64,000 nt of DNA from Klugiella xanthotipulae (GTDB taxonomy: Bacteria; Actinomycetota; Actinomycetes; Actinomycetales; Microbacteriaceae). The stretch covers positions 372,001-436,000 of the forward strand of contig NZ_VFPN01000002.1 in the NCBI RefSeq assembly GCF_006716695.1, read 5' to 3'. Every line of letters starts with the position of its first letter. Position 1 is the first letter of the stretch. This document shows positions 292 to 20,849 of the stretch, piece by piece. The notes beneath the pieces are model-generated. The model had not been told where the DNA came from. It worked only from the letters and a program-made list of their open reading frames with translations, and searched no databases. The position numbers were made by a program, and so were the translations under genes.

Positions 292-933
292 ATGCGCGAA
301 GTATTTCAACAAGAATTGCGCGAGGTTCAGACCGGACTCGCCGATATTTCTGAGCTTGTCGAGTCCGCTATTCAGCGCGGAACGCAGGCCTTCCAAACCT
401 CCGATGTGGCCCTGGCCGAAGCCGTGATCGAGGACGACCTACGCATCGACGCCCTCGCGACCAGCCTCGACGAACTTGCCATCACCATCCTGGCCCGGCA
501 GCAACCCGTCGCCAGAGATCTCCGCATCATCGTCAGCGCGCTCCGGATCAGCGCATCGCTTGAACGCATGGGCGACATTGCCGAGCACATCGCCCAGCTG
601 GCCCGCTACCGCTTCCCGGACAGCGTCATCCCCAAGGGCCTCGGCAAAATCTTCCGCGAGATGGGTGAGCTCGATATTGCTGTTGCCGCCGATGTGACGC
701 GACTCCTGCGCACGGAAGATATCGTGCTCATCGACGAGATTCGCAATCGCGACGACCGTATCGACGAGTTGCATGCGAAAGTCTTTGAGAAGGTGCTGAG
801 CGACACCTTTAAAGGCGAGGTCACCAACGTGGTGGATGCGACCCTCGCGAGCCGCTACCACGAGCGTTTTGCCGACCACGCTGTCTCGATTGCGAAAAAA
901 GTACAGTACCTCACGACCGGCGAATACAGCTAA
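292..933 (+). CDS. phoU: Phosphate transport system regulator PhoU
   Basis: A 213-residue protein of normal PhoU length, built of two repeated three-helix domains. The family E(R)xxD motif occurs twice, as ERMGD at E91/D95 and ERFAD at E191/D195, exactly 100 residues apart as expected for the duplicated fold. PhoU binds metal through these acidic motifs and damps the Pst transporter/SenX3-RegX3 signal when phosphate is plentiful. I chose the ATG at 292 because MREVFQQEL is the usual PhoU beginning and a GAGAGAAAGG ribosome site precedes it; the frame stays open upstream to a TTG at 232 without family similarity. It is divergent from senX3 and convergent with gpmA across a strong hairpin. Confidence 0.95.
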   Translation: MREVFQQELREVQTGLADISELVESAIQRGTQAFQTSDVALAEAVIEDDLRIDALATSLDELAITILARQQPVARDLRIIVSALRISASLERMGDIAEHIAQLARYRFPDSVIPKGLGKIFREMGELDIAVAADVTRLLRTEDIVLIDEIRNRDDRIDELHAKVFEKVLSDTFKGEVTNVVDATLASRYHERFADHAVSIAKKVQYLTTGEYS

Positions 934-945
934 CACCCCGGTAGC

Positions 946-6990: not shown

Positions 6991-9141
6991 ATGAATGAGT
7001 TATCTGCCTCCGCCCCGGTCGATGTTGTCCCTGGTGTAAGCCCCTCCTGGGCAGAGCTCCCCGCAGACCGGTATATTGACCGGGAAATGAGTTGGTTAGC
7101 TTTTAACCAGCGCGTGTTGGAGCTCGCCGAAGATCCCAACCTACCCGTCCTCGAACGGGCCAACTTTCTGGCCATCTTTGCCAGCAACCTTGACGAGTTC
7201 TTCATGGTGCGCGTCGCCGGGTTGAAGCGCCGTATTGTCACGGGATTGGCGCTCCCCACAAACGTGGGCCGTGCGCCACACGATGTGCTGGCAGACATCT
7301 CCGTCAAAGCACATGAATTGCAGGCCAGACATGCCGCGGCCTACCAGGATCTGGTAGGCCCCGCACTCGTTGAGGCAGGCATCCACGTGGTCACCTGGGA
7401 CAGCCTGGATGAGGCAGATAAGACGATCCTCTATCGGCACTACTCACAACATATCTACCCCATCCTGATGCCACTGGCCGTAGACCCGGCACACCCCTTC
7501 CCCTACATTTCGGGCCTCTCCCTCAACCTATCGATTCGGGTACAGAACACGAAGACAGGCAAAGAAGAGTTCGCGCGGCTCAAGGTACCGCAGATGATGT
7601 CCCGCCTCATCCGGGTGGATGCGCGCGAAGACCTCGATTACGTGCGCTATATCGCGCTCGAAGACCTGATCGCCAACCATCTCGATGGACTCTTCCCCGG
7701 GATGAAGGTCCTCGACCACCACGTGTTCCGCGTGACCCGCAACGAGGATGTCGAGATCGAGGAAGACGAGACCGAGAACCTCATTCAGGCTTTGGAAAAG
7801 GAGCTGCTGCGTCGTCGTTTTGGCCCGCCCATCCGCCTGGAAATCAGCGAGGACATGGACGAAACAACACGGATGCTGCTACTGCGCGAGTTCGACATCA
7901 CGGAGCAGGAAGTTTATGTGCTGCCTTCCCCCATCGACCTGCGTGCGCTCTTTGTGCTGGCCAAAATCGACCGGCCCGAACTGCACTATCCCAACCACGT
8001 CCCCACAACCAATGTGTGGCTCAAGCCCTCAAACCCCAACGAGCGCGCCGATATCTTCAAGGCGGTCTCCCGCCGCGAGGTCCTCACCCATCACCCCTAC
8101 GAGTCATTCACGACGAGTGTGCAAGCCTTCCTGGAGCAAGCCGCAGCTGACCCGCACGTGCTCGCCATCAAGCAGACCCTGTACCGCACTTCGGGTGACA
8201 GTCCCATCGTGGCAGCACTGATCAAAGCCGCCGAGTCGGGCAAGCAGGTGCTCGCCCTCGTCGAGATTAAGGCCCGCTTCGACGAAGAGGCCAACATCTC
8301 GTGGGCCCGCAAGCTAGAGAAGGCTGGCGTGCACGTGGTGTACGGCATTGTGGGGCTGAAGACCCACTGCAAGCTGGTGCACGTGATCCGCGAGGAGAAG
8401 GGTGTACTTAAGCACTACAGCCATATGGGCACGGGAAACTACAATCCCAAGACCAGCCGCATCTACGAAGATTTGGGTCTCTTTACCTCGTCAGAAACGG
8501 TGGGCAAAGACCTGACCAAACTCTTTAACGTGCTCTCGGGATACGCGATCGAGAAGAAATACAAGCGCCTACTTGTGGCCCCTCTCCACCTGCGCAACGG
8601 CCTACTCGCCCGGATCGAGACCGAGGCAGCCAACGCACGCGCCGGACTCCCGAGCGGCATCAAGATCAAGGTCAACTCAATCGTAGACGAGGTCATCATT
8701 GACGCCCTCTACCGTGCGAGTAGCGATGGTGTGCCCATTGACGTATGGGTACGCGGAATCTGCGGGATCAAGGCGGGGCAACCCGGGTACAGCGAGAACA
8801 TCCGGATCCGCTCCATCCTTGGACGATACCTGGAACACTCGCGCATCTTTGCCTTCCACAACAGCGGAGATCCGGACGTCTTAATTGGCAGCGCGGATAT
8901 GATGCACCGCAATCTTGACCGACGCGTGGAAGCACTGGTCAAGCTCACCGACCCCGAGCACGTGGAGCAGGTTCTCGACATGTTCACGCTATGCTTTAGC
9001 GACAAAACTGCTGGGTGGACTCTCGAGCCAGACTCCACCTGGACTCGCACCCACCTCGATGCCAGCGGGCACCCGCTCGAGGATATGCAAGATCGACAAA
9101 TGACCCTGGCGATGTCGCGCCGCAGAACAGGAGCCCGATGA
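6991..9141 (+). CDS. ppk: Polyphosphate kinase 1
   Basis: Makes inorganic polyphosphate from ATP. The 716-residue protein has the full PPK1 layout: N-terminal helical domain starting [20 protein letters not shown], middle head domain, and two phospholipase-D-like C-terminal domains. The catalytic histidines are visible as H459 in GLKTHCKL (the autophosphorylated residue by comparison with the E. coli enzyme) and H478 in YSHMGTGN. Length is normal. It starts at ATG 6991 after a 69-nt gap from mshD and shares an ATGA overlap with the following NUDIX gene. I looked for a PHO-type direct repeat in the upstream gap and did not see one. Confidence 0.96.
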
Positions 9142-10076
9142 CGGACCTCGTCTACGCCTCCGGTGCCGTGTGTTGGCGTCGAGTAGGCGACGAGCTGATG
9201 ATATTGCTCATCCACCGTACCCAACACAAGGATATTTCCTTCCCGAAGGGAAAACTTGACCCGGGCGAGACGCTGCCCATGACGGCTGTGCGCGAGGTGG
9301 AGGAGGAGACCGGACTTGCCGTGTCTCTCGGCGCAAACCTGGGCAGTATCCACTACCCGCTCCCCAAGGGGCGCGAGAAGTTTGTGCAGTACTGGGCCGC
9401 CGAGGTCTCGGAGGAGGCCGTTCAACGGTCCACCTTCATGCCCAACAAAGAGGTGGATGCCCTCATCTGGACCCCCCTGAAGAAGGTGCGCGCGGCCCTC
9501 GACTATCAGCAGGACAAGGAGATTTTCGACGTCTTCCTCGCCCTGGTCGAACGGCAGGCACACGACACCTTCTCTGTGGTGCTGCTGCGGCATGCTCAGG
9601 CGGAGCCCCGCGGCGAGGCGTTTCCCGTTGATCATCTGAGACCGCTCACCGGGTTGGGCCGCGGGCAGTCGCTCACGATTGCCCCCACTATCGCGGCGTT
9701 TGGCCGGGCCAAAATCCTCAGCAGCACCGCGGTGCGTTGTCGGCAAACCTCGGCCCCACTGGCCACGCTAACGAGCAAGAAGGTGGCAACCACGGAAGAC
9801 CTCAGCCAAGACGCCTGGGACGAGGGCACAGGCAATCTGCGCGGTGTTCTCGGCAAGGTGGTGCGGCAGCGGAAGAACGTTGTGCTGTGCAGCCACCGCC
9901 CCGTGTTGCCCGATATTGCGCGCGAGCTGGTGCTGGCCACCGGCACCATCCCGGGTGGCTATCTGACCGAGTCAACGGATCTTCCGGTCTCCGGGTTCTC
10001 CGTTTTCCACCTCTCACAGGAACACCCGAGCTCCGGCATCCTCTCCATCGAGACGTACCCTAAGCTCCTGTCTTAG
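9138..10076 (+). CDS. NUDIX hydrolase fused to histidine phosphatase (MutT1-type)
   Basis: A two-domain protein of 312 residues. The NUDIX box spans residues 38-60 (G38, E44, R52-E53, E56-E57, G59), and a histidine phosphatase domain follows from about 143, with RHA at 151-153 and a later [10 protein letters not shown]. This fusion is known in mycobacterial MutT1, which removes 8-oxo-dGTP and, by the NUDIX half, can act on diadenosine or other nucleotide polyphosphates. The start codon overlaps the ppk stop (ATGA), so ppk and this gene are translationally coupled. The link to polyphosphate or nucleotide turnover is inferred from that coupling. Confidence 0.9.
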
Positions 10077-10097
10077 TCGTCATCACAGAACCGCTAA

Positions 10098-10127
10098 CTG
10101 GCCGGGCACCCCGTGGTGCCCGGCCAG
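10098..10127 (+). terminator. Terminator hairpin after the ppk-NUDIX unit
   Basis: A 13-bp perfect stem (10098-10110 with 10115-10127) and 4-nt loop, 21 nt after the NUDIX stop codon. No T-run follows. Confidence 0.7.
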
Positions 10128-10177
10128 CCACTCGTTAACCGGAACACTACCCGGCGGAGGAACCCGCGTTAACCGGC

Positions 10178-10213
10178 GACTGCCCCCGCACAACCAGGGT
10201 TGCGGGGGCAGTC
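10178..10213 (-). terminator. Terminator hairpin of the surface-protein gene
   Basis: A 13-bp perfect stem (10178-10190 with 10201-10213) and 10-nt loop just downstream of the reverse-strand surface-protein stop at 10228. Together with the hairpin at 10098-10127 it separates two converging units. Confidence 0.7.
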
Positions 10214-10227
10214 ATCGTGTGAGCGGA

Positions 10228-13200
10228 CTATACCGTGCGACGGCGGCGGCGAGCTGCCAGCAGCGCCCCTCCCCCGAGGAGCAGTATTCCAGCGAGCATC
10301 CCGATACCACCATCGGCACCCGTGATCACCAATTCATCCGGAGCGGTGAAGAGAGACGCAGAGGCATCGTCTTCAGCGGTCAGGTTCTCCCGGGGGTTGG
10401 CGGGGTCGGCCGCGGTAACGGTCGCAAGATTCGTATAGCCCTCGGACAGGGCATCCTGCGGAATGATTCGCGTAACAGTCTCGCCCGCCTTAATCAACGG
10501 GATTGTGGCGTAGTGGCCCAGCGCCGGATCGCCTAGCGCCACCTTGACCAGCGGATAGTTACCCGTGTTCGTGACACTCAGCCGCCAATAGACGCTATCA
10601 CCGCTGCCAACTTTAACCGTCTCACCCCAGGAGCCATCGGCCGAGACCGAGACATCCTTGGCAATGGTGATTCCCTTAACGAGGCCGTAGTAGAACGAAT
10701 CGTCGGCAGCCATCAGATCTGCAGCCCCCTGCTGGGGCGCCCTGGCTGAAGCCGTCACGGTGTTCTGGTACTGCCCTTCCCGAGCGGTTCCGGTTGCGGA
10801 GAGAACCTGCGACTGGCCTGGCGCAAGGGATGCAATCGTCTCGGTGAAGACGGTGTCTCCCGCGCTGTCCACATCGGCGACCTCCACGTTCGTCAGCGGC
10901 AACGTGCCCGTGTTAGTAACGGTGTACTCCCACGCGACCTCATCACCCGGGGTGAGGAAGGGTCCGGGGGCCGACGCCACATCCGTGCCATTTGTTGTCT
11001 TGACAACGGTTAGGCCGGAGGTACCCGCCAGGTACCAGGATTCATCCTGGGCGGGTGCGACGGGAGCGGCGAGAGTAGTACCGAGGTCATCCACCGCGAC
11101 AGCGTTGACCGTAGCAGTGTTATGGTACTGGCCGGCGATGGCCGGGGCACTCGCCGTGAAAGTACGGGTCTGACCGGGTAGAAGCGGCCCGGTCGCGGTG
11201 CTCGTGGGGACAAGCGTACCCGTCGCACCGGAGCCATCAACAAAGGCGTCCTCAACCGTGATCTGGTCGAGAGCGACGTCTCCGTCGTTGGTGACTGCGT
11301 AGGTCCATTCCACCGTGCTGCCCGTAGCCACAACGGCTCCAGGGGCGGCTGAGACGTCGATGCCATTGGTCTTCTTGACCACCGACATCTCGGGGTGTGC
11401 ATCCGCAGCAATCTGCGCCGGGTTCGAGGAAAGCGAGCGCTGCGCACTGTGGTACACCGCGTGGGCCTCGACCGTGTTGGTGGCCTCGGTGAGGTAGCTA
11501 ATTCCCGCAGGAACCTCAGTCGCCGGAACCTCCAGGGTGAAGTCCGCACCCACGTTCAGCTCCGGGACTGTAACACGGAACGCCGTGGCACCCGTCGGTG
11601 TTGTAGACCAGCTTCCGGTATCAGCCGAGGTAGCATCAACGGAGTACTCGACCGTCGAACCGGCGGGAGCGCCCGTAACCGGCGAGGTGAGCGTTACCCC
11701 AAAATCAGAGTTACGCGTGTCACCGTCGAAGGGCATCCTGTCAAAGACCACCAGGTCGCTCACCGGGTCAGTCAAGACGTTCTTCACGTACACCTGCCAG
11801 TCAGCCGTACCGGGAGAGGCAACGGAGGCAAATGTTGACCAGGGCCGCGACGCATCACTGCGGACAACTTTACCGATGAGCAGCCCACCTGCAGTTGCGA
11901 CCGTGGACTGCGCTGAGGCAACAGCCACGCGTGTGAGGTTAGCGTCCAGATCGAAGCTATCTGCCGCGTAATACGAGGGCCAGTATCCCATCCGAAGCGT
12001 TTTAACAGCATCATCGTTGGTGTAGGCCACCGAATACGTGTTCACACCCGTTCCCCCCGAGGCATAGGCCTGTGCCAGCACCGTCACAGGAACGTTGTAC
12101 TGGAAGCCCAGACCCTCGTAGCGGTTCTTGGGCGAACCGGCCAAGCGGATGGATTCCAGCGTGTCAAAGGTGAAGACCACGACCTGATGATCGCCATCCG
12201 CTGCGGTGACCGTGTTCGTGGTAATCGTCAGGCCGTTCCCGGGGGCGGGAACAGGAATGTTTGAGGTCACCGTTGTCGGTGACACCCGAGACACTCCCAC
12301 CGTGGGATCGTAGAACACACCGACCGGGAGCACCACGTTCATTACCGAGTTATCAAAGGAACGAACCGGGTCCAGGTTAGAGATGTTTGCCACGTAGTTG
12401 GCTGGTGAGCCCACCGTCAACGAAGCCGGTGCCGCGATGGTGGTAATGATCGGAACCTGGTCCTCCACAGTTGTGGTAGCACTGTCGTTCACCGTGGTGA
12501 CGGCGGCTCCACCCTCCAGCACACCCGAGGTTACAGCGGTGTTTTTGAGCGTGACAGAGCTGCCAGCGGCACCCTTGTTGATGGGGATATAGCTGGTGAA
12601 GACCTCCACCTCGGAGTTGTGGTGAATGGCCGCGTCCGTTGCTCCAGGCGACACAGTGACACGCCACCCCGTGATGCGCTCGCCACGGCCCAGATTCAGC
12701 ACCTGCCGGTACCCCTCCGAGACGAAGCCGTTTGACCCGCTCGTCTGCGTGTTCAGGAACAGGCTCTGTGCCGTGGTCAGGCCCGCACCGTACGTTTTCC
12801 AGTCGCTACTCGCGGTTGTGGTGTACTCAAACGTATACGGGATATCGGCCCGAATCAGCGTGGAATTGAAGCCCACCCGGAGACGGTAGACATCGCTCTG
12901 TGCATAAAAATCGGCATTTTCTGCACTCTGGGCAGAAGAATCCTCCAGCACGATACGGTCGAGACCCTCGGAATCCACATCGTTCAAGAATGACCCGGCA
13001 ACTCGGAAGGCGGGAAGCCAGTCTCCGTTGTAGTAGGTGTAGTTATCGCTGTTCCCGTCAACGTATGCATGCTTTGTCATGTGGAGGCGTTTGTCGGCCC
13101 CCTGAATGATTGCCGGAGAGGAGGCGGTTGCTGTCGGCCGAGCCTGCCAGGTTCCGCTGAAGTCACGAACATCGAGCGCCACAACGTTTGCGGGGGGAGT

Positions 13201-14073
13201 TATCCCAGCGGCAAATGCGCCCTCAGGGAAGTTCACGGTAATCCAGAGTTGATGGTCCACATCATCCAGATGGGCCTGACTCGGACCGTACGGCGTGCCC
13301 GTGCGCTCCCACACGGCAGTCTGTCCTGTCGCCGCACTGCCGGTAACCGTCCAGGCACCGCCCACGCTGGAATAGGTGTCCGTGATCGTTGCACCGGCCG
13401 GCAGGGTATCCGTGAGACGCTGGCCCCACGAGGTGAGCGTGTCGGACTGCTCACTCGGGGTATCGGTACTCACGTTGAAGTAGTAGGTGACATCCCGGTT
13501 GTTACTCCCGACCACGGTCACAGCGGACTTCACCGGCGAGTAATTGAGGTTTCCGGTGATGCGGGTACTGGCCGTGGCCGGAGCAACCGCACCGCCGGGA
13601 CCGTCGCTACCGGACAGGGTCGTGGTGAGCACCGTTGAGGTATCCATCTTCTCGGGCTCGACAGGTTTGACCGTAAAAATGAATGTGCTGAGACTCTCGG
13701 TCAGGTCTCGCAGGGTGAAGATGACGACTCCCGTCGTGGCATCGTACGTATACGACTTCACCGCCGAGTCTGGGCCAACGGGTACGGCCTCGAAGGCCAG
13801 GCCCGGGGCGAGTTGGGCGGTGAGCACGATGCCCGTTGCCGGAGAGCCGACCTGAGCATCCGCATCCACCGTTACGGTGTATGAGAAGCCCTGCCGGACG
13901 GCGACCGAGGCTGGTGCCTCGATCTCAACCGTGTAGTCGCCGATAGCCGCGGTGGCTGCTCCGGCTCCCGTGACGAGAAGCACGCTCGCGGCCAGCAGCG
14001 TTACTACTGCTAGCGCCACGCTGCGTAACCAATGTTTTACTGTGGATTTTTGTGTCCACGACGATGACGTCAT
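10228..14073 (-). CDS. Large wall-anchored surface protein with DUF11-like repeats
   Basis: A 1281-residue secreted protein. The N-terminus has a basic region and hydrophobic signal segment (VALAVVTLLAASVLLVTGAGA). Residues about 40-890 resemble Ig-like/isopeptide-type adhesin domains. About 895-1240 hold three tandem DUF11-like repeats, each opening with a TNG or similar strand and containing VTNTGxxPL (EWTYAVTNDGDVAL, WEYTVTNTGTLPL, WRLSVTNTGNYPL). The C-terminus is a sorting signal: LVITG at 1248-1252, a hydrophobic helix and RRRRRTV. LVITG departs from LPXTG, so the sortase class is uncertain, and no sortase gene is visible here. It is divergent from pstS, with GGTAGGG before its ATG. Role in adhesion is inference. 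Confidence 0.85.
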   Translation of the reverse strand: MTSSSWTQKSTVKHWLRSVALAVVTLLAASVLLVTGAGAATAAIGDYTVEIEAPASVAVRQGFSYTVTVDADAQVGSPATGIVLTAQLAPGLAFEAVPVGPDSAVKSYTYDATTGVVIFTLRDLTESLSTFIFTVKPVEPEKMDTSTVLTTTLSGSDGPGGAVAPATASTRITGNLNYSPVKSAVTVVGSNNRDVTYYFNVSTDTPSEQSDTLTSWGQRLTDTLPAGATITDTYSSVGGAWTVTGSAATGQTAVWERTGTPYGPSQAHLDDVDHQLWITVNFPEGAFAAGITPPANVVALDVRDFSGTWQARPTATASSPAIIQGADKRLHMTKHAYVDGNSDNYTYYNGDWLPAFRVAGSFLNDVDSEGLDRIVLEDSSAQSAENADFYAQSDVYRLRVGFNSTLIRADIPYTFEYTTTASSDWKTYGAGLTTAQSLFLNTQTSGSNGFVSEGYRQVLNLGRGERITGWRVTVSPGATDAAIHHNSEVEVFTSYIPINKGAAGSSVTLKNTAVTSGVLEGGAAVTTVNDSATTTVEDQVPIITTIAAPASLTVGSPANYVANISNLDPVRSFDNSVMNVVLPVGVFYDPTVGVSRVSPTTVTSNIPVPAPGNGLTITTNTVTAADGDHQVVVFTFDTLESIRLAGSPKNRYEGLGFQYNVPVTVLAQAYASGGTGVNTYSVAYTNDDAVKTLRMGYWPSYYAADSFDLDANLTRVAVASAQSTVATAGGLLIGKVVRSDASRPWSTFASVASPGTADWQVYVKNVLTDPVSDLVVFDRMPFDGDTRNSDFGVTLTSPVTGAPAGSTVEYSVDATSADTGSWSTTPTGATAFRVTVPELNVGADFTLEVPATEVPAGISYLTEATNTVEAHAVYHSAQRSLSSNPAQIAADAHPEMSVVKKTNGIDVSAAPGAVVATGSTVEWTYAVTNDGDVALDQITVEDAFVDGSGATGTLVPTSTATGPLLPGQTRTFTASAPAIAGQYHNTATVNAVAVDDLGTTLAAPVAPAQDESWYLAGTSGLTVVKTTNGTDVASAPGPFLTPGDEVAWEYTVTNTGTLPLTNVEVADVDSAGDTVFTETIASLAPGQSQVLSATGTAREGQYQNTVTASARAPQQGAADLMAADDSFYYGLVKGITIAKDVSVSADGSWGETVKVGSGDSVYWRLSVTNTGNYPLVKVALGDPALGHYATIPLIKAGETVTRIIPQDALSEGYTNLATVTAADPANPRENLTAEDDASASLFTAPDELVITGADGGIGMLAGILLLGGGALLAARRRRRTV

Positions 14074-14386
14074 GTGCCCTACCTAACTTGCGCACCGCAT
14101 CCCAATCCCGTGAGAGGCGAAACGAATTTTCCCAAAAATAAATGGTCGTACACGTATACAAGACGAGATGCTGCCCGGATCGTGACGCATGACCCGATCA
14201 TTTAGCAGACATACAGCCCGTCAGTACAAGCAACACGGTAGCACCATCTTTAATGCGGAAAATCCGCCCAGCGTTAACCATCCGTTCACTCTCAGGGGGG
14301 AGACTCGTCACCGGCGGTGCCTAGTGTTCAGAACGAACCGGAGGGTTCTTCACAGCACCACTTACGCAATAGAACGGACACTGTAC
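14074..14386. promoter_or_regulatory. Divergent intergenic region between surface-protein gene and pstS
   Basis: A 313-nt non-coding stretch, relatively AT-rich at 14120-14270, serving both genes. It contains the PHO-box-like repeat at 14273-14290 and a possible -10 (TAGTGT, 14322-14327) on the pstS side. I see no clear -35, which is common at activator-dependent promoters. No gene was found in it. Confidence 0.6.
14273..14290 (+). promoter_or_regulatory. PHO-box-like direct repeat upstream of pstS
   Basis: Two units, GTTAACC (14273-14279) and GTTCACT (14284-14290), lie exactly 11 nt apart and each matches the actinobacterial GTTCACC core at 6 of 7 positions. This is the expected RegX3/PhoP operator for pstS induction under phosphate starvation. 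Confidence 0.6.
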
Positions 14387-15484
14387 GTGAGATTCTCAAC
14401 CACGAGCACGGCGGTCGCGCTGGCCGCTATCACCACTCTCGCCCTTACCTCCTGTGCCGCCAACGAGTCCGGCGGAACCACCTCCACCAGCGACGGGGCG
14501 GCACTCAGCGGCACCATTGCCGGCATCGGAGCGTCTTCTCAGGGCAGCGCCCAGGAGGCCTGGATTGCCTCGTTCCAGACCGCAAACGCCGACGTGACGA
14601 TCAACTACTCACCGGACGGTTCCGGTGCTGGCCGTAAGGCATTCATCGCCGGTGGTGTCGCCTTTGCCGGCTCAGACTCCGCCCTGAACGATGAGGAGTT
14701 GGCTGGCTCCTTCGGCTCATGCGCGGCCGACAGCACAGCAATTGACCTCCCCGTCTACATCTCGCCAATCGCCGTGATCTATAACGTGGACGGCGTGGAC
14801 AACCTCAAGCTTGACGCAGCCACACTCGCCAAGATCTTCAAGGGAGACATCAGCACCTGGAACGACCCGGCCATCGCGGCACTCAACCCGGACGCAACTC
14901 TGCCGAGCGCCAACATCACGCGGGTCAACCGCTCGGATGACTCGGGCACCACCAAAAACTTCAGCGACTACCTTTTCCAGAACGTCCCCAAAATCTGGGA
15001 CGCTGAGCCCGCCGACGCTTTCCCCTACACGGGTGGCGAAGCGGCTAAGGGAACCTCCGGGGTTGCGGATGCCGTGGCGAACGGAACCAACACGATTGGC
15101 TACGCTGACGCCTCCGCCGCCGAGCCCCGTAACCTGAATGTGGCCGAGATCAAGGTGGGAGACAAATTCGTCGCTTTTTCACCCGAAGCTGCTGCAGCAG
15201 TCGTTGACGCTTCACCCTTGGCCGAAGGTCGCGGTGAGAACGACCTCGCGATCACGATTGACCGCACCACGACCGAGGCCAACACCTACCCGCTCGTGCT
15301 GGTGAGCTACATCATCGCCTGCCAGGAGTACTCAGACCCCAACACCGCCTCGATCGTGTCGTCGTACCTGAACTTTATCGCCAGCCCCGAGGGCCAGAAA
15401 GAAGCGGCTGACAAGGCCGGATCGGCACCCATCTCCGACTCGCTTTCCGAGAAGGTGACCGCCGCCATCGGCACCATCAAGTAA
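14387..15484 (+). CDS. pstS: Phosphate-binding lipoprotein PstS
   Basis: Extracytoplasmic receptor of the high-affinity phosphate ABC transporter. The GTG at 14387 opens a signal peptide ending in a lipobox, LTSC, with the lipidated Cys at residue 23; the frame is open further upstream, but that part is not signal-like. The 365-residue protein has PstS ligand-loop features: IGASSQGSAQEAW near the N-terminus, FAGSDSAL in place of the usual SD loop, and NRSDDSGTTKNFSDYL. It is the first gene of pstSCAB and lies behind a PHO-box-like repeat. Confidence 0.95.
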   Translation: MRFSTTSTAVALAAITTLALTSCAANESGGTTSTSDGAALSGTIAGIGASSQGSAQEAWIASFQTANADVTINYSPDGSGAGRKAFIAGGVAFAGSDSALNDEELAGSFGSCAADSTAIDLPVYISPIAVIYNVDGVDNLKLDAATLAKIFKGDISTWNDPAIAALNPDATLPSANITRVNRSDDSGTTKNFSDYLFQNVPKIWDAEPADAFPYTGGEAAKGTSGVADAVANGTNTIGYADASAAEPRNLNVAEIKVGDKFVAFSPEAAAAVVDASPLAEGRGENDLAITIDRTTTEANTYPLVLVSYIIACQEYSDPNTASIVSSYLNFIASPEGQKEAADKAGSAPISDSLSEKVTAAIGTIK

Positions 15485-15490
15485 GACTCA

Positions 15491-15527
15491 ACCGGGGTGT
15501 GTGCGGTGATGCAGCACACACCCCGGT
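15491..15527 (+). terminator. Intercistronic hairpin between pstS and pstC
   Basis: A 14-bp perfect stem (15491-15504 with 15514-15527) with a 9-nt loop, 7 nt after the pstS stop. It could act as a partial terminator or 3'-end stabiliser, letting pstS be made in excess over the membrane components. Confidence 0.65.
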
Positions 15528-15592
15528 CGTTGTTCATCATCCACCACCAGCGACAGAGAACCGCGAGCGCGGGCAGAAAGGCAGCACCGTCC

Positions 15593-16639
15593 ATGAGCGA
15601 CACCAGCGTGCAGGACACCGGACAGGACAGCCTGCGCGATACTCCCCGCTCGGCAGAGACTCCGCCGCAGGACCATCAGCCGCGAACCCAAGAACCACCG
15701 ACCACCACCGGCACCCCCCGACGACCCCTGCGCCGCCTGGGGGATCTGCTGTACTCGGGCACGTCGCGCACCGCGGGTATCTTGATCCTCGTCACCCTCG
15801 CGGCTGTGGCGATCTTCCTGGTGGCCCAGAGCATCCCTGCGCTCACCGTTGATCCCGCCGAGTTGAAGGGTGCCCCCACAAGTTTCTGGGTCTATGTGGC
15901 CCCGCTCGCGTTTGGGACCGTGTGGGCCGCCGCCCTCGCTCTGCTTTTCGCCCTGCCCGTGGCGATTGGTATCGCCCTCTTCATTTCGCACTACGCGCCC
16001 CGCAAACTCGCCCAGGGCCTCGGCTATGTGATCGACCTGCTCGCCGCCGTGCCCTCCGTGGTCTTCGGCCTGTGGGGCATCAAAGTGCTCGCGCCGGGTG
16101 TACAGCCCGTCTACGCGTGGCTGACCGAAAATATGGGCTGGTTTCCGCTGTTTAGTGGCCAAGCCTCCGGAACCGGACGTACCATCCTGACCGTCGCTAT
16201 CGTGCTCGCGGTCATGATTCTGCCGATCATCACGGCACTCTGCCGCGAAGTATTTCTCCAGACCCCTCGCCTGCATGAGGAGGCCGCGCTTGCCCTCGGG
16301 GCGACACGCTGGGAGATGGTGCGGGTAGCGGTGCTGCCGTTTGGCCGGGCCGGGATCGTCTCGGCCTCAATGCTCGGCCTCGGCCGTGCGCTCGGCGAGA
16401 CCATGGCTGTGGCAATGGTGCTCTCACCCGCGACCGTGATCAGCTTTGCTCTGCTCACCTCTAGCAACCCCACCACGATCGCGGCCAATATTGCGCTCAA
16501 CTTTCCCGAGGCGTTTGGCGTCAACGTCAACGCACTCATCGCCACCGGGCTGGTGCTCTTTGTCATCACCCTGCTGGTCAACTCGGTGGCCCGCATCATT
16601 GTCAACCGCCGCAAGGCCTTCTCAGGGGCAAACTCATGA
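15593..16639 (+). CDS. pstC: Phosphate ABC transporter permease PstC
   Basis: A 348-residue inner-membrane permease. A hydrophilic Pro/Thr-rich leader of about 55 residues precedes six hydrophobic helices. The ABC permease EAA-type loop is visible as EEAALALGATRWEMVRVAVLPFGRAG, followed by GLGRALGETMAV. The ATG at 15593 follows AGAAAGG; longer frames read into the intercistronic hairpin. It overlaps pstA by ATGA, so the two are translationally coupled and form the heterodimeric channel. Confidence 0.95.
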   Translation: MSDTSVQDTGQDSLRDTPRSAETPPQDHQPRTQEPPTTTGTPRRPLRRLGDLLYSGTSRTAGILILVTLAAVAIFLVAQSIPALTVDPAELKGAPTSFWVYVAPLAFGTVWAAALALLFALPVAIGIALFISHYAPRKLAQGLGYVIDLLAAVPSVVFGLWGIKVLAPGVQPVYAWLTENMGWFPLFSGQASGTGRTILTVAIVLAVMILPIITALCREVFLQTPRLHEEAALALGATRWEMVRVAVLPFGRAGIVSASMLGLGRALGETMAVAMVLSPATVISFALLTSSNPTTIAANIALNFPEAFGVNVNALIATGLVLFVITLLVNSVARIIVNRRKAFSGANS

Positions 16640-17718
16640 CAACGGCAACACTCTCCCGCCCCCGCGCCAACCCACTGACGGCGGGGCGGCTGCCCCGCTG
16701 GGCTCCGTGGGCACTCCTGGTCACCAGCATGGCTGTCTCCGCGATACTCTTTGCCCTCGTCATGCTGTCGGAGAAGAGTGACGAGCTCAATCTCTTCGGC
16801 ATCCTGCTGGTGGGAGCCGTGCTCTACGCGGTGCTCATCTTCACGTTTGCCTGGCTCGCAGAGGGCCACCGGCGTGCGGTTGATCGGCTGATGACCACGC
16901 TCATCACGAGTGCGTTTATTCTGGCACTTTTCCCACTTGTCTCGCTGCTATGGACCGTGATTGCCGGCGGCCTCGCCCGGATGGACTCCGAGTTCTTCAG
17001 CTACTCAATGCGCAATGTGACCGGTGAAGGCGGCGGGGCCGTGCACGCCATCCTGGGTACGCTACAGATCACGGGGCTGGCCACGCTCATCTCTGTGCCG
17101 GTAGGCCTCTTCACCGCCATCTATCTCGTGGAGTACGGTCGCGGCTGGCTCGCGCGGGCAATCACCTTCTTTATCGATGTGATGACGGGAATCCCGTCCA
17201 TTGTCGCCGGTCTCTTCGCTTTTGCCCTGTTTGCGATGTTCTTCGGCCCGGGCGTACGGATGGGGTTTGGCGGGGCGGTGGCGCTCTCGGTCCTGATGAT
17301 CCCCGTGGTCGTGCGCTCCTCCGAGGAAATGCTCAAACTCGTGCCCAACGAGCTACGCGAGGCAAGCTTTGCGCTCGGCGTGCCCAAGTGGTTGACCATC
17401 TCAAAAGTAGTCATCCCCACCGCCATTGCCGGCATCACGACGGGCGTGATGATCTCGATCTCGCGCGTCATCGGGGAAACCGCTCCCCTGCTCATCATCG
17501 CCGGCTTCACCACGAGCATGAACTACAACATGTTCAACGGGCCCGTGATGACGCTGCCGGTCTTCGTCTACAACTCCTACGCCAACCCCGGGACAGATGT
17601 GGGCGCTTACCTCGACCGCGCCTGGGCCGGGGCGCTCACGCTCATCCTGATCGTGATGCTCCTCAACCTCGGAGCCCGCATCATCGCCCGCGTCTTCTCA
17701 CCCAAGCTCAGCCGCTAG
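16636..17718 (+). CDS. pstA: Phosphate ABC transporter permease PstA
   Basis: A 360-residue membrane permease and partner of PstC. The permease core lies in about residues 130-350, with the coupling loop NELREASFALGVPKWLTISKVV and the PstA ending RVIGETAPLLIIAGFTTSMNYN. The N-terminal 110 residues carry three additional hydrophobic segments. The start overlaps the pstC stop, and pstB follows after 21 nt. Confidence 0.95.
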   Translation: MTTATLSRPRANPLTAGRLPRWAPWALLVTSMAVSAILFALVMLSEKSDELNLFGILLVGAVLYAVLIFTFAWLAEGHRRAVDRLMTTLITSAFILALFPLVSLLWTVIAGGLARMDSEFFSYSMRNVTGEGGGAVHAILGTLQITGLATLISVPVGLFTAIYLVEYGRGWLARAITFFIDVMTGIPSIVAGLFAFALFAMFFGPGVRMGFGGAVALSVLMIPVVVRSSEEMLKLVPNELREASFALGVPKWLTISKVVIPTAIAGITTGVMISISRVIGETAPLLIIAGFTTSMNYNMFNGPVMTLPVFVYNSYANPGTDVGAYLDRAWAGALTLILIVMLLNLGARIIARVFSPKLSR

Positions 17719-17739: not shown

Positions 17740-18519
17740 GTGTCAAAACGAATCGAAGTCTCTAACCTCAATGTGTACTACTCCTCCTTCCTGGCGGTCG
17801 AGGAGGTAAACCTCACGATCAACCCGCGCAGTGTGACAGCGTTCATCGGCCCGAGCGGTTGCGGCAAGTCCACACTTCTGCGCACGCTCAACCGGATGCA
17901 TGAGGTGATTCCGGGTGCTCGTGTGGAAGGTGAGGTGCTGGTAGACGGCAATAACCTCTACGCCAACGGGGTTGACCCGGTGCTCGTGCGACGCCAGGTG
18001 GGCATGGTTTTCCAACGCCCCAACCCTTTCCCCACGATGTCTATCCGAGAGAACGTGCTCGCCGGGGTGCGACTCAACAACCGCAAGATCTCCAAATCAG
18101 ATGCGGAGGAGCTGGTGGAGCGCTCCCTCGGTGGAGCCAACCTCTGGAACGAGGTCAAGGATCGCCTCGACAAGCCCGGGTCGGGTCTCTCGGGTGGCCA
18201 GCAGCAGCGCCTGTGCATTGCACGAGCAATCGCGGTGTCCCCCGACGTGCTGTTGATGGACGAGCCGTGTTCAGCCCTCGACCCGATCTCCACCCTCGCC
18301 ATTGAGGACCTGATCGAGAACCTCAAGAAGGACTACACGATTGTGATCGTCACCCACAATATGCAGCAGGCCTCGCGCGTCTCTGACCGCACGGCGTTCT
18401 TCAACATCGCGGGCACGGGCAAACCGGGCAAGCTGATCGAGTACGACGACACCACCACGATCTTCTCCTCACCCTCGGTGCAGGCCACCGAGGACTACGT
18501 GTCGGGCCGATTCGGATAG
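17740..18519 (+). CDS. pstB: Phosphate ABC transporter ATPase PstB
   Basis: A 259-residue ATPase driving phosphate import. Walker A is at residues 37-45 (GPSGCGKST), with [11 protein letters not shown] (Q-loop), [14 protein letters not shown] (signature), [12 protein letters not shown] (Walker B) and a switch His in [10 protein letters not shown]. The NPFP phrase is diagnostic of PstB. The GTG start at 17740 follows GAAGGAC. Last gene of pstSCAB and followed by two hairpins. Confidence 0.97.
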
Positions 18520-18731: not shown

Positions 18732-19376
18732 CTAATCGAGCGAGCCAGACCGCCAGAGTGAGGCCACCGAGCGAAAGTCGTCGGCAAACTGCGAGTAACG
18801 CAGTCCACGCGTGGTGAGAACCTGTGCCCGCTCGGGCTCACCTGCTTCGACATCCGTGGCCAGATCGATGTAGCCCGAGCGCAACACCCGACAGAACGAA
18901 GCCGCGCGGTCGAGCGCAATTCCGAGGTCGCCGCTGAACACACCCGTGAGTATCCGATCACTCAGCGCGGATATTTCCTCCGGGCCGGTGGGGGCGACGG
19001 CACCGGACACAACGGGGTCAATCGTGCTGAGCGCCTCAGCACCGCGACGATAGGCATAGGCCGTTGATTCGGGGTCGTTGCGCACAACAGCGCGAACCAG
19101 GTACAACCGCCACAGCGCACCGGGCAGTGATCGAGCACTCGCCTGAGACCACAGCTGCGCAATATCGTCGAGGCCACCGTTCGTGTCGGCCACCAGCATC
19201 CGCTCAACAATGTTCTGGGCTACCCCCTCGCGGTCAGTACTGCCGCGCACCCGATCCAGCAGCGCCCAGGCCGTATCGCGAGCCAGGGTGTAGTGCACGG
19301 CCGGGTCTTCGGCACCCCAGTGATCGTCAAACTCGTGGGTGGGCCGCAGGACGGGCCGATGAAACTCTTCCGACAT
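18732..19376 (-). CDS. Conserved actinobacterial hypothetical protein
   Basis: A 214-residue soluble, mostly helical protein starting MSEEFHRPVLRPTHEFDDHWG. It contains no motif I can tie to an enzyme. The composition (many Ala, Leu, Arg with regular spacing, such as GALWRLYLVRAVVRNDPES) suggests stacked helices. It is a lone gene, convergent with pstB and upstream of tRNA-Lys on the opposite strand. Homologues of this type are sometimes labelled as an RNA-polymerase subunit in databases, a name nothing in this sequence supports. Confidence 0.7.
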   Translation of the reverse strand: MSEEFHRPVLRPTHEFDDHWGAEDPAVHYTLARDTAWALLDRVRGSTDREGVAQNIVERMLVADTNGGLDDIAQLWSQASARSLPGALWRLYLVRAVVRNDPESTAYAYRRGAEALSTIDPVVSGAVAPTGPEEISALSDRILTGVFSGDLGIALDRAASFCRVLRSGYIDLATDVEAGEPERAQVLTTRGLRYSQFADDFRSVASLWRSGSLD

Positions 19377-19736: not shown

Positions 19737-20849
19737 TCATCCGCTGCCTGCCCATCCGGCGCGTACCCAGAGGCCTTCGCTGGCGTCGAGGCCGGTGTCG
19801 TAGAGCGGTGGCTGGTCTGTTTGTTCGGCTGGCTCGGTGGTGTTGTCTGGGGCGGGTTCTGGTGTGTGTTGGATGAGTTCGTGTGCGCGGTCAGAGGGGA
19901 TCTCTTTCAGTGTGAGGAACCATTCCGCGGCTCGTTTCATGTGTACTTCGCTCATTCCGCGATGGTTCCGCAATACCGTCCTAATGCCGTTGTTGATCCC
20001 GCCCTCGAGTGGCGACGTGGTTCGAGCATTTCCGTGTTCGAGGTATGTGAATAGGACCCCTTTTCGGTTGAGGCTGTGGAGCAGATTCCAGGCTTTGCGT
20101 AACCGGTCGTGAGTGTATCCCCAGTTTCCGTCACGGTATCGGGTGCGTTCTTTCGTGAGGTGTCCGTATGCCTGCCACCACACGTTCAGGAGTTTCTGCC
20201 ACTCGATCGCGTCGTGAATGGTGGTGACTTCTGAAAGCGCGCGACCGATCTGCGCGAGGTGCTTGCCGGCGCCTGTTTTCGGGTTGAGGGTGAGGTGACG
20301 GCGGAGGTTCATGCGGACGTGGAAGATGCAGCGTTGTATCCGGGTGGCGGGCCATTGTTGGCGGAGCGCAGACGCAATCCCGGTGCCACCGTCACAGACC
20401 ACGACCGTTGGTGCCGGGAGACGTTCCAGGAGTGCCAGCCACGCCGCAGTTGATTCTCGCGCGCACCATTGCCACGCCAGCACTTGCAACGATTGCGTGA
20501 CCGCGATGAGTAGACACCAGGAACCGATGTAGATGCCGTCGACCAGGATCGTGTGGTGCGCGGTCGTGACGGGACCCAGGCGGGGTTCAATATCCCAACA
20601 CCACCTCGTTGAGCGTCGAAACTGCCGCGCGGCAGACGGGCCACCGAGGTCAGCCTGGGAGTGCTTCCCGGCAAGCCAGCTCAGGAACTCGTGGAGTTGA
20701 TGTCGCTGTGTGAGATCGGCACGTTTTCGGGTCGCGGAAGCCCCGCAATTCGGGCAACGCCAACGCTGCGTGCCAGAACGATGTCTCCCGTTCTTCACGA
20801 GCTTGGAATCGCATACCGCACATTTGCCGGAGTTGGGGGTGTTTGGCAC
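19737..20849 (-). CDS. IS1249-type transposase (IS256 family DDE)
   Basis: A 370-residue transposase. An N-terminal zinc-ribbon-like motif has C10, C13, C32 and C35. The DDE triad can be read as D104 (LVDGIYIG), D153 (VVCDGGTGI) and E282 (TSPLEGGIN). The FHVRMNLRRHLT stretch and the REST/AAW pattern between D153 and E282 match the IS256-type MULE domain. The GTG start at 20849 follows TAGGAG. The C-terminal 45 residues are Pro/Thr/Glu-rich and look dispensable. No frameshift or stop is seen, so it may be active. Confidence 0.92.
   Translation of the reverse strand: MPNTPNSGKCAVCDSKLVKNGRHRSGTQRWRCPNCGASATRKRADLTQRHQLHEFLSWLAGKHSQADLGGPSAARQFRRSTRWCWDIEPRLGPVTTAHHTILVDGIYIGSWCLLIAVTQSLQVLAWQWCARESTAAWLALLERLPAPTVVVCDGGTGIASALRQQWPATRIQRCIFHVRMNLRRHLTLNPKTGAGKHLAQIGRALSEVTTIHDAIEWQKLLNVWWQAYGHLTKERTRYRDGNWGYTHDRLRKAWNLLHSLNRKGVLFTYLEHGNARTTSPLEGGINNGIRTVLRNHRGMSEVHMKRAAEWFLTLKEIPSDRAHELIQHTPEPAPDNTTEPAEQTDQPPLYDTGLDASEGLWVRAGWAGSG

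Follow-up and report, generated by a model that had tools for sequence, protein, structure and literature searches.

A conserved PHO box upstream of pstS in Klugiella xanthotipulae and a neighbouring surface-protein gene that probably lies outside the phosphate regulon

We analysed a stretch of 64,000 nucleotides from Klugiella xanthotipulae, hereafter the window. It carries the genes for polyphosphate kinase (ppk), a NUDIX protein and the phosphate transporter pstSCAB, with a large surface-protein gene on the opposite strand between the NUDIX gene and pstS (Table 1). The region common to pstS and the surface gene had been put at 313 nt in a preliminary description, and the coordinates agree: 14074-14386 lies between the surface ORF (10228-14073) and the pstS start at 14387. 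The context of this GTG start, GTACGTGAGATT, also occurs in two relatives (genomes G003 and G023). pstS is present in 147 of 150 genomes of the family and is single-copy here. Downstream of pstB lies an IS1249-family transposase at 19737-20849; the ORF between the two (18732-19376) matched nothing in Pfam or NCBIfam at E 0.001.

Table 1. Features of the locus, in window coordinates, with the basis of each assignment.
Feature	Position	Strand	Basis
phoU	292..936	+	homology from 304; start codon picked by eye
ppk, polyphosphate kinase	6991..9141	+	domain/profile matches
NUDIX + histidine-phosphatase protein (MutT1-like)	9138..10076	+	NF052459 below cut-off; start by eye
Surface protein, 1281 aa, DUF7507 + DUF11 repeats, sorting-like tail	10228..14073	-	domain search
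DNA between operator and surface gene, no similarity to relatives' loci	14074..14261		presumed site of the surface gene's promoter
Weak third unit ATCCGCC, 11 nt 5' of the dimer	14262..14268	+	low-information positions in relatives
PHO-box dimer GTTAACC-ATCC-GTTCACT, predicted pstS operator	14273..14290	+	consensus matching and conservation in relatives
Conserved promoter block GGGGGGAGACTCGTCA (consensus GGGnGGAnnCTCGTnA)	14295..14310	+	alignment of relatives' contexts
Presumed pstS promoter -10, TAGTGT (consensus TAGCGT)	14322..14327	+	conserved; read as a putative -10
pstS, phosphate-binding lipoprotein	14387..15484	+	TIGR00975 above cut-off
pstC	15497..16639	+	profile match
pstA	16636..17718	+	named from translation
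pstB	17740..18519	+	named from translation

The dimer upstream of pstS consists of GTTAACC (14273-14279) and GTTCACT (14284-14290), separated by ATCC. The letters agree with the earlier reading of two 7-nt units, each matching GTTCACC at six of seven positions and starting 11 nt apart, so that at least two direct units near the consensus stand at the spacing of a PHO box. With up to three mismatches, the window contains 11 matches against 7.0 expected, and 8 of 100 shuffles also reach 11, which makes this level uninformative. At two mismatches the dimer is the sole match in the window. Consensus counting at two to three mismatches was dropped as too loose to inform. In the whole genome (2.98 Mb), GTTNACC-N4-GTTNACC with at most one mismatch occurs at 14 places, twice the seven found for a reversed control; our own arithmetic from this search gives about 0.0014 chance matches for the 296 starts in the region. 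A matrix built from relatives scored the site at 14273-14290 at 19.6, against 4.6 for the next 18-mer in the window; among the remaining 13 genome places the highest score was 12.3. We examined the flanking ORFs for 11 of the genome-wide motif places. Elsewhere in the genome, a second good box, GTTCACC-GGCG-GTTCACA (C2:693215-693232; L032/L171/L175), lies 97 nt upstream of a lipoprotein-like ORF without a Pfam match and is a candidate for a further RegX3 target.

The dimer is conserved upstream of orthologous pstS genes across the Microbacteriaceae. In a sample of 29 family loci, the best match in the 300 nt upstream of pstS agreed at 11-14 of 14 positions in every case. In a set of 80 loci, which overlaps the first and has several genomes in common with it, 78 agreed at 12-14 positions (14/14 in 38 loci, 13/14 in 31 and 12/14 in nine). 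The two remaining loci, L116 and L155, reached 8/14 and have neither ppk nor NUDIX in the locus; their pstS genes may be second copies. We derived a 29-nt matrix and consensus from 107 of the 109 loci (L116 and L155 fell below the threshold), representing 93 distinct contexts, with the window site excluded from training. The consensus reads GTTCACCTnCCGTTCACC, with near-invariant dimer units, followed by GGGnGGAnnCTCGTnA at +22 to +37 and TAGCGT at +49 to +54. The TAGCGT element is fixed at +49, and its first, second and last bases are 98-99% conserved; we presume that its counterpart TAGTGT in the window is the -10 of the pstS promoter. With this matrix the window site scored 20.4, whereas the training sites scored at least 21.9 (median 31.3), a comparison that favours the training sites because they score themselves; the next place in the window scored 4.5. 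Scanning 9900-15600 for sigma-70 promoters and for terminators returned none, where 1.3 and 3.8 were expected; this result is of little weight because the DNA is G+C-rich.

The conservation of the dimer before pstS makes a chance match to the consensus untenable. Such a match might be argued from the absence of an excess in the window at three mismatches and from the merely twofold genome-wide enrichment, but persistence before pstS in both samples of relatives, together with the fixed architecture downstream, leaves this explanation extremely improbable.

The genome also encodes a cognate two-component system together with phoU. phoU occupies the leftmost part of the window, and a histidine kinase gene and a response regulator gene (L174:8725-10131 and L174:8045-8728, respectively) are divergent from it. 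The kinase gene begins inside the window, with its initial 130 nt at positions 1-130, and the remainder lies to the left; the name senX3 rests on a reading of its translation and on its position. Among solved structures, the best relative of the response regulator is RegX3 of Mycobacterium tuberculosis (2oqr, E 7.7e-95). About 16 kb separate regX3 and the operator. Between senX3 and phoU, a degenerate three-unit array with 11-nt phasing, GTTTAGC-GAGTACC-GTTAACC (203-231), is the second-best matrix match in the window and is possibly an autoregulatory site. In Aurantimicrobium minutum, ORFs resembling regX3, senX3 and phoU, named by reading their translations, stand directly before pstS (L151:7135-10001).

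The repeat is thus best read as a well-conserved PHO-box operator of pstS, for which our comparisons support a prediction of RegX3 binding. Alternatively, this genuine and conserved operator could be bound mainly by another regulator, for example a PolR-like protein answering oxygen, given that PolR of Microlunatus phosphovorus binds GTTCACnnnnnGTTCaC before pstS, according to the available text of PMC6754071. We judge this very unlikely, as senX3-regX3 and phoU are about 16 kb from the operator and GTTCACC is the unit of Streptomyces PhoP (PMC4415409, available text).

We then consider the surface gene. The suggestion that it sits where ppk, NUDIX and pst would otherwise be contiguous holds. 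In 72 of 80 Microbacteriaceae loci, 132-563 nt separate the end of the NUDIX gene from the first pstS residue in the alignment; in 27 of 29 sampled family loci the distance to pstS is 149-522 nt (coordinates read by hand). The comparison therefore supports the surface gene as an interruption of an otherwise contiguous ppk-NUDIX-pstSCAB array. Among exceptions to this order, ppk and NUDIX lie on the opposite side of pstS in L144, and L151, like L116 and L155, has neither gene in the locus.

A search for the surface gene at the same site in relatives recovered none among the 80 Microbacteriaceae pst loci (tblastn, E 1e-5). Other genes occupy the junction instead. In G003 these are a TetR-type regulator, epimerase-like ORFs (by eye) and a divergent M20 peptidase; in G023, a 215-aa ORF with an MctB match below cut-off; and in L152, a gene of the diacylglycerol-kinase family. 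An alkaline phosphatase gene (7770-9814) is divergent from pstS in Microbacteriaceae bacterium VKM Ac-2855 (L110), and so is a gene for a PGA_cap protein, lipoprotein-like by eye, in two Leucobacter genomes (L130:8527-9765 and L142:8602-9879). The junction is a settling place for varied and unrelated genes rather than the seat of a conserved pairing.

Positions 14069-14400 gave nine alignments at E 0.1 against the loci of 84 relatives; eight begin at 14263-14273, at the operator, and extend towards pstS, and the ninth (G003) begins at 14349. Neither 14069-14262 nor the NUDIX side (10041-10235) aligned to any of these loci at E 0.1. The test is coarse, because 75 of the 84 loci gave no alignment and the NUDIX side gave none either. 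Flanking repeats were considered as a trace of an insertion mechanism and rejected; they comprised just short imperfect pairs, mostly within the surface gene.

The surface protein has tandem DUF7507/DUF11 repeats, a signal peptide and a tail of the form LVITG-hydrophobic-RRRRR, the last two read by eye. A search by sequence for relatives of solved structure returned none at E 0.01. It is a fair guess from the domain content that the protein is an adhesin. Matches at E 1e-40 or better occur in six of 398 family genomes, its own included. Five other genomes contain at least eight near-full-length homologues, which span about 1000 to 1270 of the 1281 residues; since one search scored the best two candidates per genome and another the best four, some homologues may be missed. 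The third homologue in G003 (L074) came from the best-four search only. Five partial matches (L069-L072 and L075) share just the repeats and were excluded from the homologue tests below; their best result in the box scan was 10/14. In G003 (L176, C1:915546-924251), two homologues are divergent from each other, with more repeat matches close by.

The preliminary description had further proposed that the surface gene, by virtue of the region in common with pstS, might belong to the phosphate regulon and link phosphate starvation to surface adhesion. The part of that proposal concerning pstS stands, as its box is conserved in 29/29 and 78/80 loci; the part concerning the surface gene is not supported. 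In the 199 nt between the surface start codon and the operator, the best box on the surface gene's own strand scored -22.6 (p 0.91, 400 resamples). The homologues likewise show no association with box or pst genes. No match to ppk, NUDIX, pstS or pstC was found near the eight listed homologues (1.5 kb flanks, more for three genomes), and the best box in the 550 nt upstream of these eight, on both strands, scored -4.8, compared with 19.6 for the window operator. One of them, L073, reached 11/14 at the start of its match, and -13.1 when the scan stopped before the match.

We applied the own-strand test at four junctions in total, as L142 left 5 nt to scan. The M20 gene of G003 behaved like the surface gene (best -22.4, p 0.63). 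The alkaline phosphatase gene of L110 scored 2.1, a value reached by 1 of 400 resamples, and the PGA_cap gene of L130 scored 5.9, reached by 0 of 400; reverse-strand scores in L142 were at chance level (best -7.9). L110 carries its own reverse-strand box array, with a further in-phase unit, GTTCACA, at 9753-9759 on the alkaline phosphatase strand. Within these four junctions, a box on the gene's own strand thus accompanies the plain phosphate gene but is missing for the surface gene. Because GTTAAC is palindromic, such a unit might be recognised in either orientation; the reverse-strand score of the pstS box itself was 3.3 in G003 and -13.9 in the window. Two TANNNT sites lie on the surface gene's strand, of which the nearer (14135-14140), with a 3-of-6 upstream hexamer, is a weak -10 candidate; its distance is 61 nt to the surface start codon and 133 nt to the box.

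These results bear on the possibility that the pstS operator has captured the surface gene, with RegX3 controlling both directions and phosphate starvation altering adhesion in this lineage. The surface gene does share its 313-nt upstream region with a real operator, divergent genes at this junction can bear boxes, as in L110 and L130, and GTTAAC-type units are close to palindromes. We nevertheless find capture unlikely: the surface gene lacks an own-strand box, its sole -10 candidate is weak and distant from the operator, the listed homologues have no boxes, and the pairing is not conserved in the 80 loci. Membership of the regulon is unsupported given the variable junction, an operator oriented and spaced for pstS, the missing own-strand box and the boxless homologues. 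A link between adhesion and phosphate starvation through neighbouring position is accordingly not supported by the sequence comparisons.

We consider it probable that pstSCAB is served by a RegX3/PhoP-type operator and that the putative adhesin gene next to it is a lineage-specific insertion outside the regulon. When phosphate is scarce, SenX3 would phosphorylate RegX3, which would bind the GTTCACC-type units, phased at 11 nt, in a head-to-tail arrangement and recruit RNA polymerase to the presumed -10. pstSCAB would then be switched on at low phosphate, promoting phosphate uptake. The surface gene would have inserted between NUDIX and pstS in this lineage, with the insertion ending just upstream of the operator; most likely it has its own promoter in 14074-14261 and is independent of the regulon. 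In favour of this explanation are the repeat, its conservation, the fixed promoter architecture, senX3-regX3 with phoU, the variable junction and the lack of an own-strand box. Counted against it are the score of the window site below all training sites, the twofold level of the plain motif over its control, the coarseness of the alignment test and the GTTAAC palindrome.

The comparison describes how the operator and promoter of pstS are arranged across the Microbacteriaceae and yields a matrix usable for regulon prediction. It also indicates that a PHO box in a common intergenic region is weak evidence of a neighbour's phosphate control, because a divergent plain phosphate gene, the alkaline phosphatase, carries a box of its own. 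Among the open-licence papers searched, we found no report joining Microbacteriaceae with a PHO box and none of a Pho-adhesin link in Actinobacteria; the match obtained concerned Agrobacterium. Mycobacterial RegX3/ESX-5 was set aside as a phosphate-to-surface precedent, as the available text of PMC6016242 and PMC12301784 gives no binding site. The Streptomyces pap-pitH1 operon, described in the available text of PMC7866108 as opposite in orientation to the linked pstSCAB and unbound by PhoP, was also set aside as evidence, as it may not represent the same junction.

The locus resembles several known systems. Streptomyces PHO boxes comprise two 11-nt units with the consensus GTTCACC, and SenX3-RegX3 is the established mycobacterial counterpart (available text of PMC4415409 and PMC7866108). 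The Streptomyces pstS box likewise has two 7-nt units with 4-nt spacers and the same consensus (same sources), and pst, nudix and ppk genes are clustered there too (PMC7866108, available text). Unlike in Streptomyces, with its PhoP, the closest solved relative of the regulator here is RegX3 and the gene order is ppk-NUDIX-pstSCAB, the present system being known from its sequence. In Microlunatus phosphovorus, the PolR motif has the same letters, GTTCACnnnnnGTTCaC, and likewise stands as direct repeats upstream of phosphate genes, pstS among them; the difference is that its regulator there is DevR-like and proposed to respond to oxygen (PMC6754071, available text). According to the available text of PMC12617251, fibrillar adhesins have stalks made of DUF11 and DUF7507 (CLIPPER, CLIPPER_2) domains with isopeptide bonds. 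The surface protein shares these repeats and, by eye, the signal peptide and sorting-like tail of such adhesins; any ligand, adhesion and isopeptide bonds are putative.
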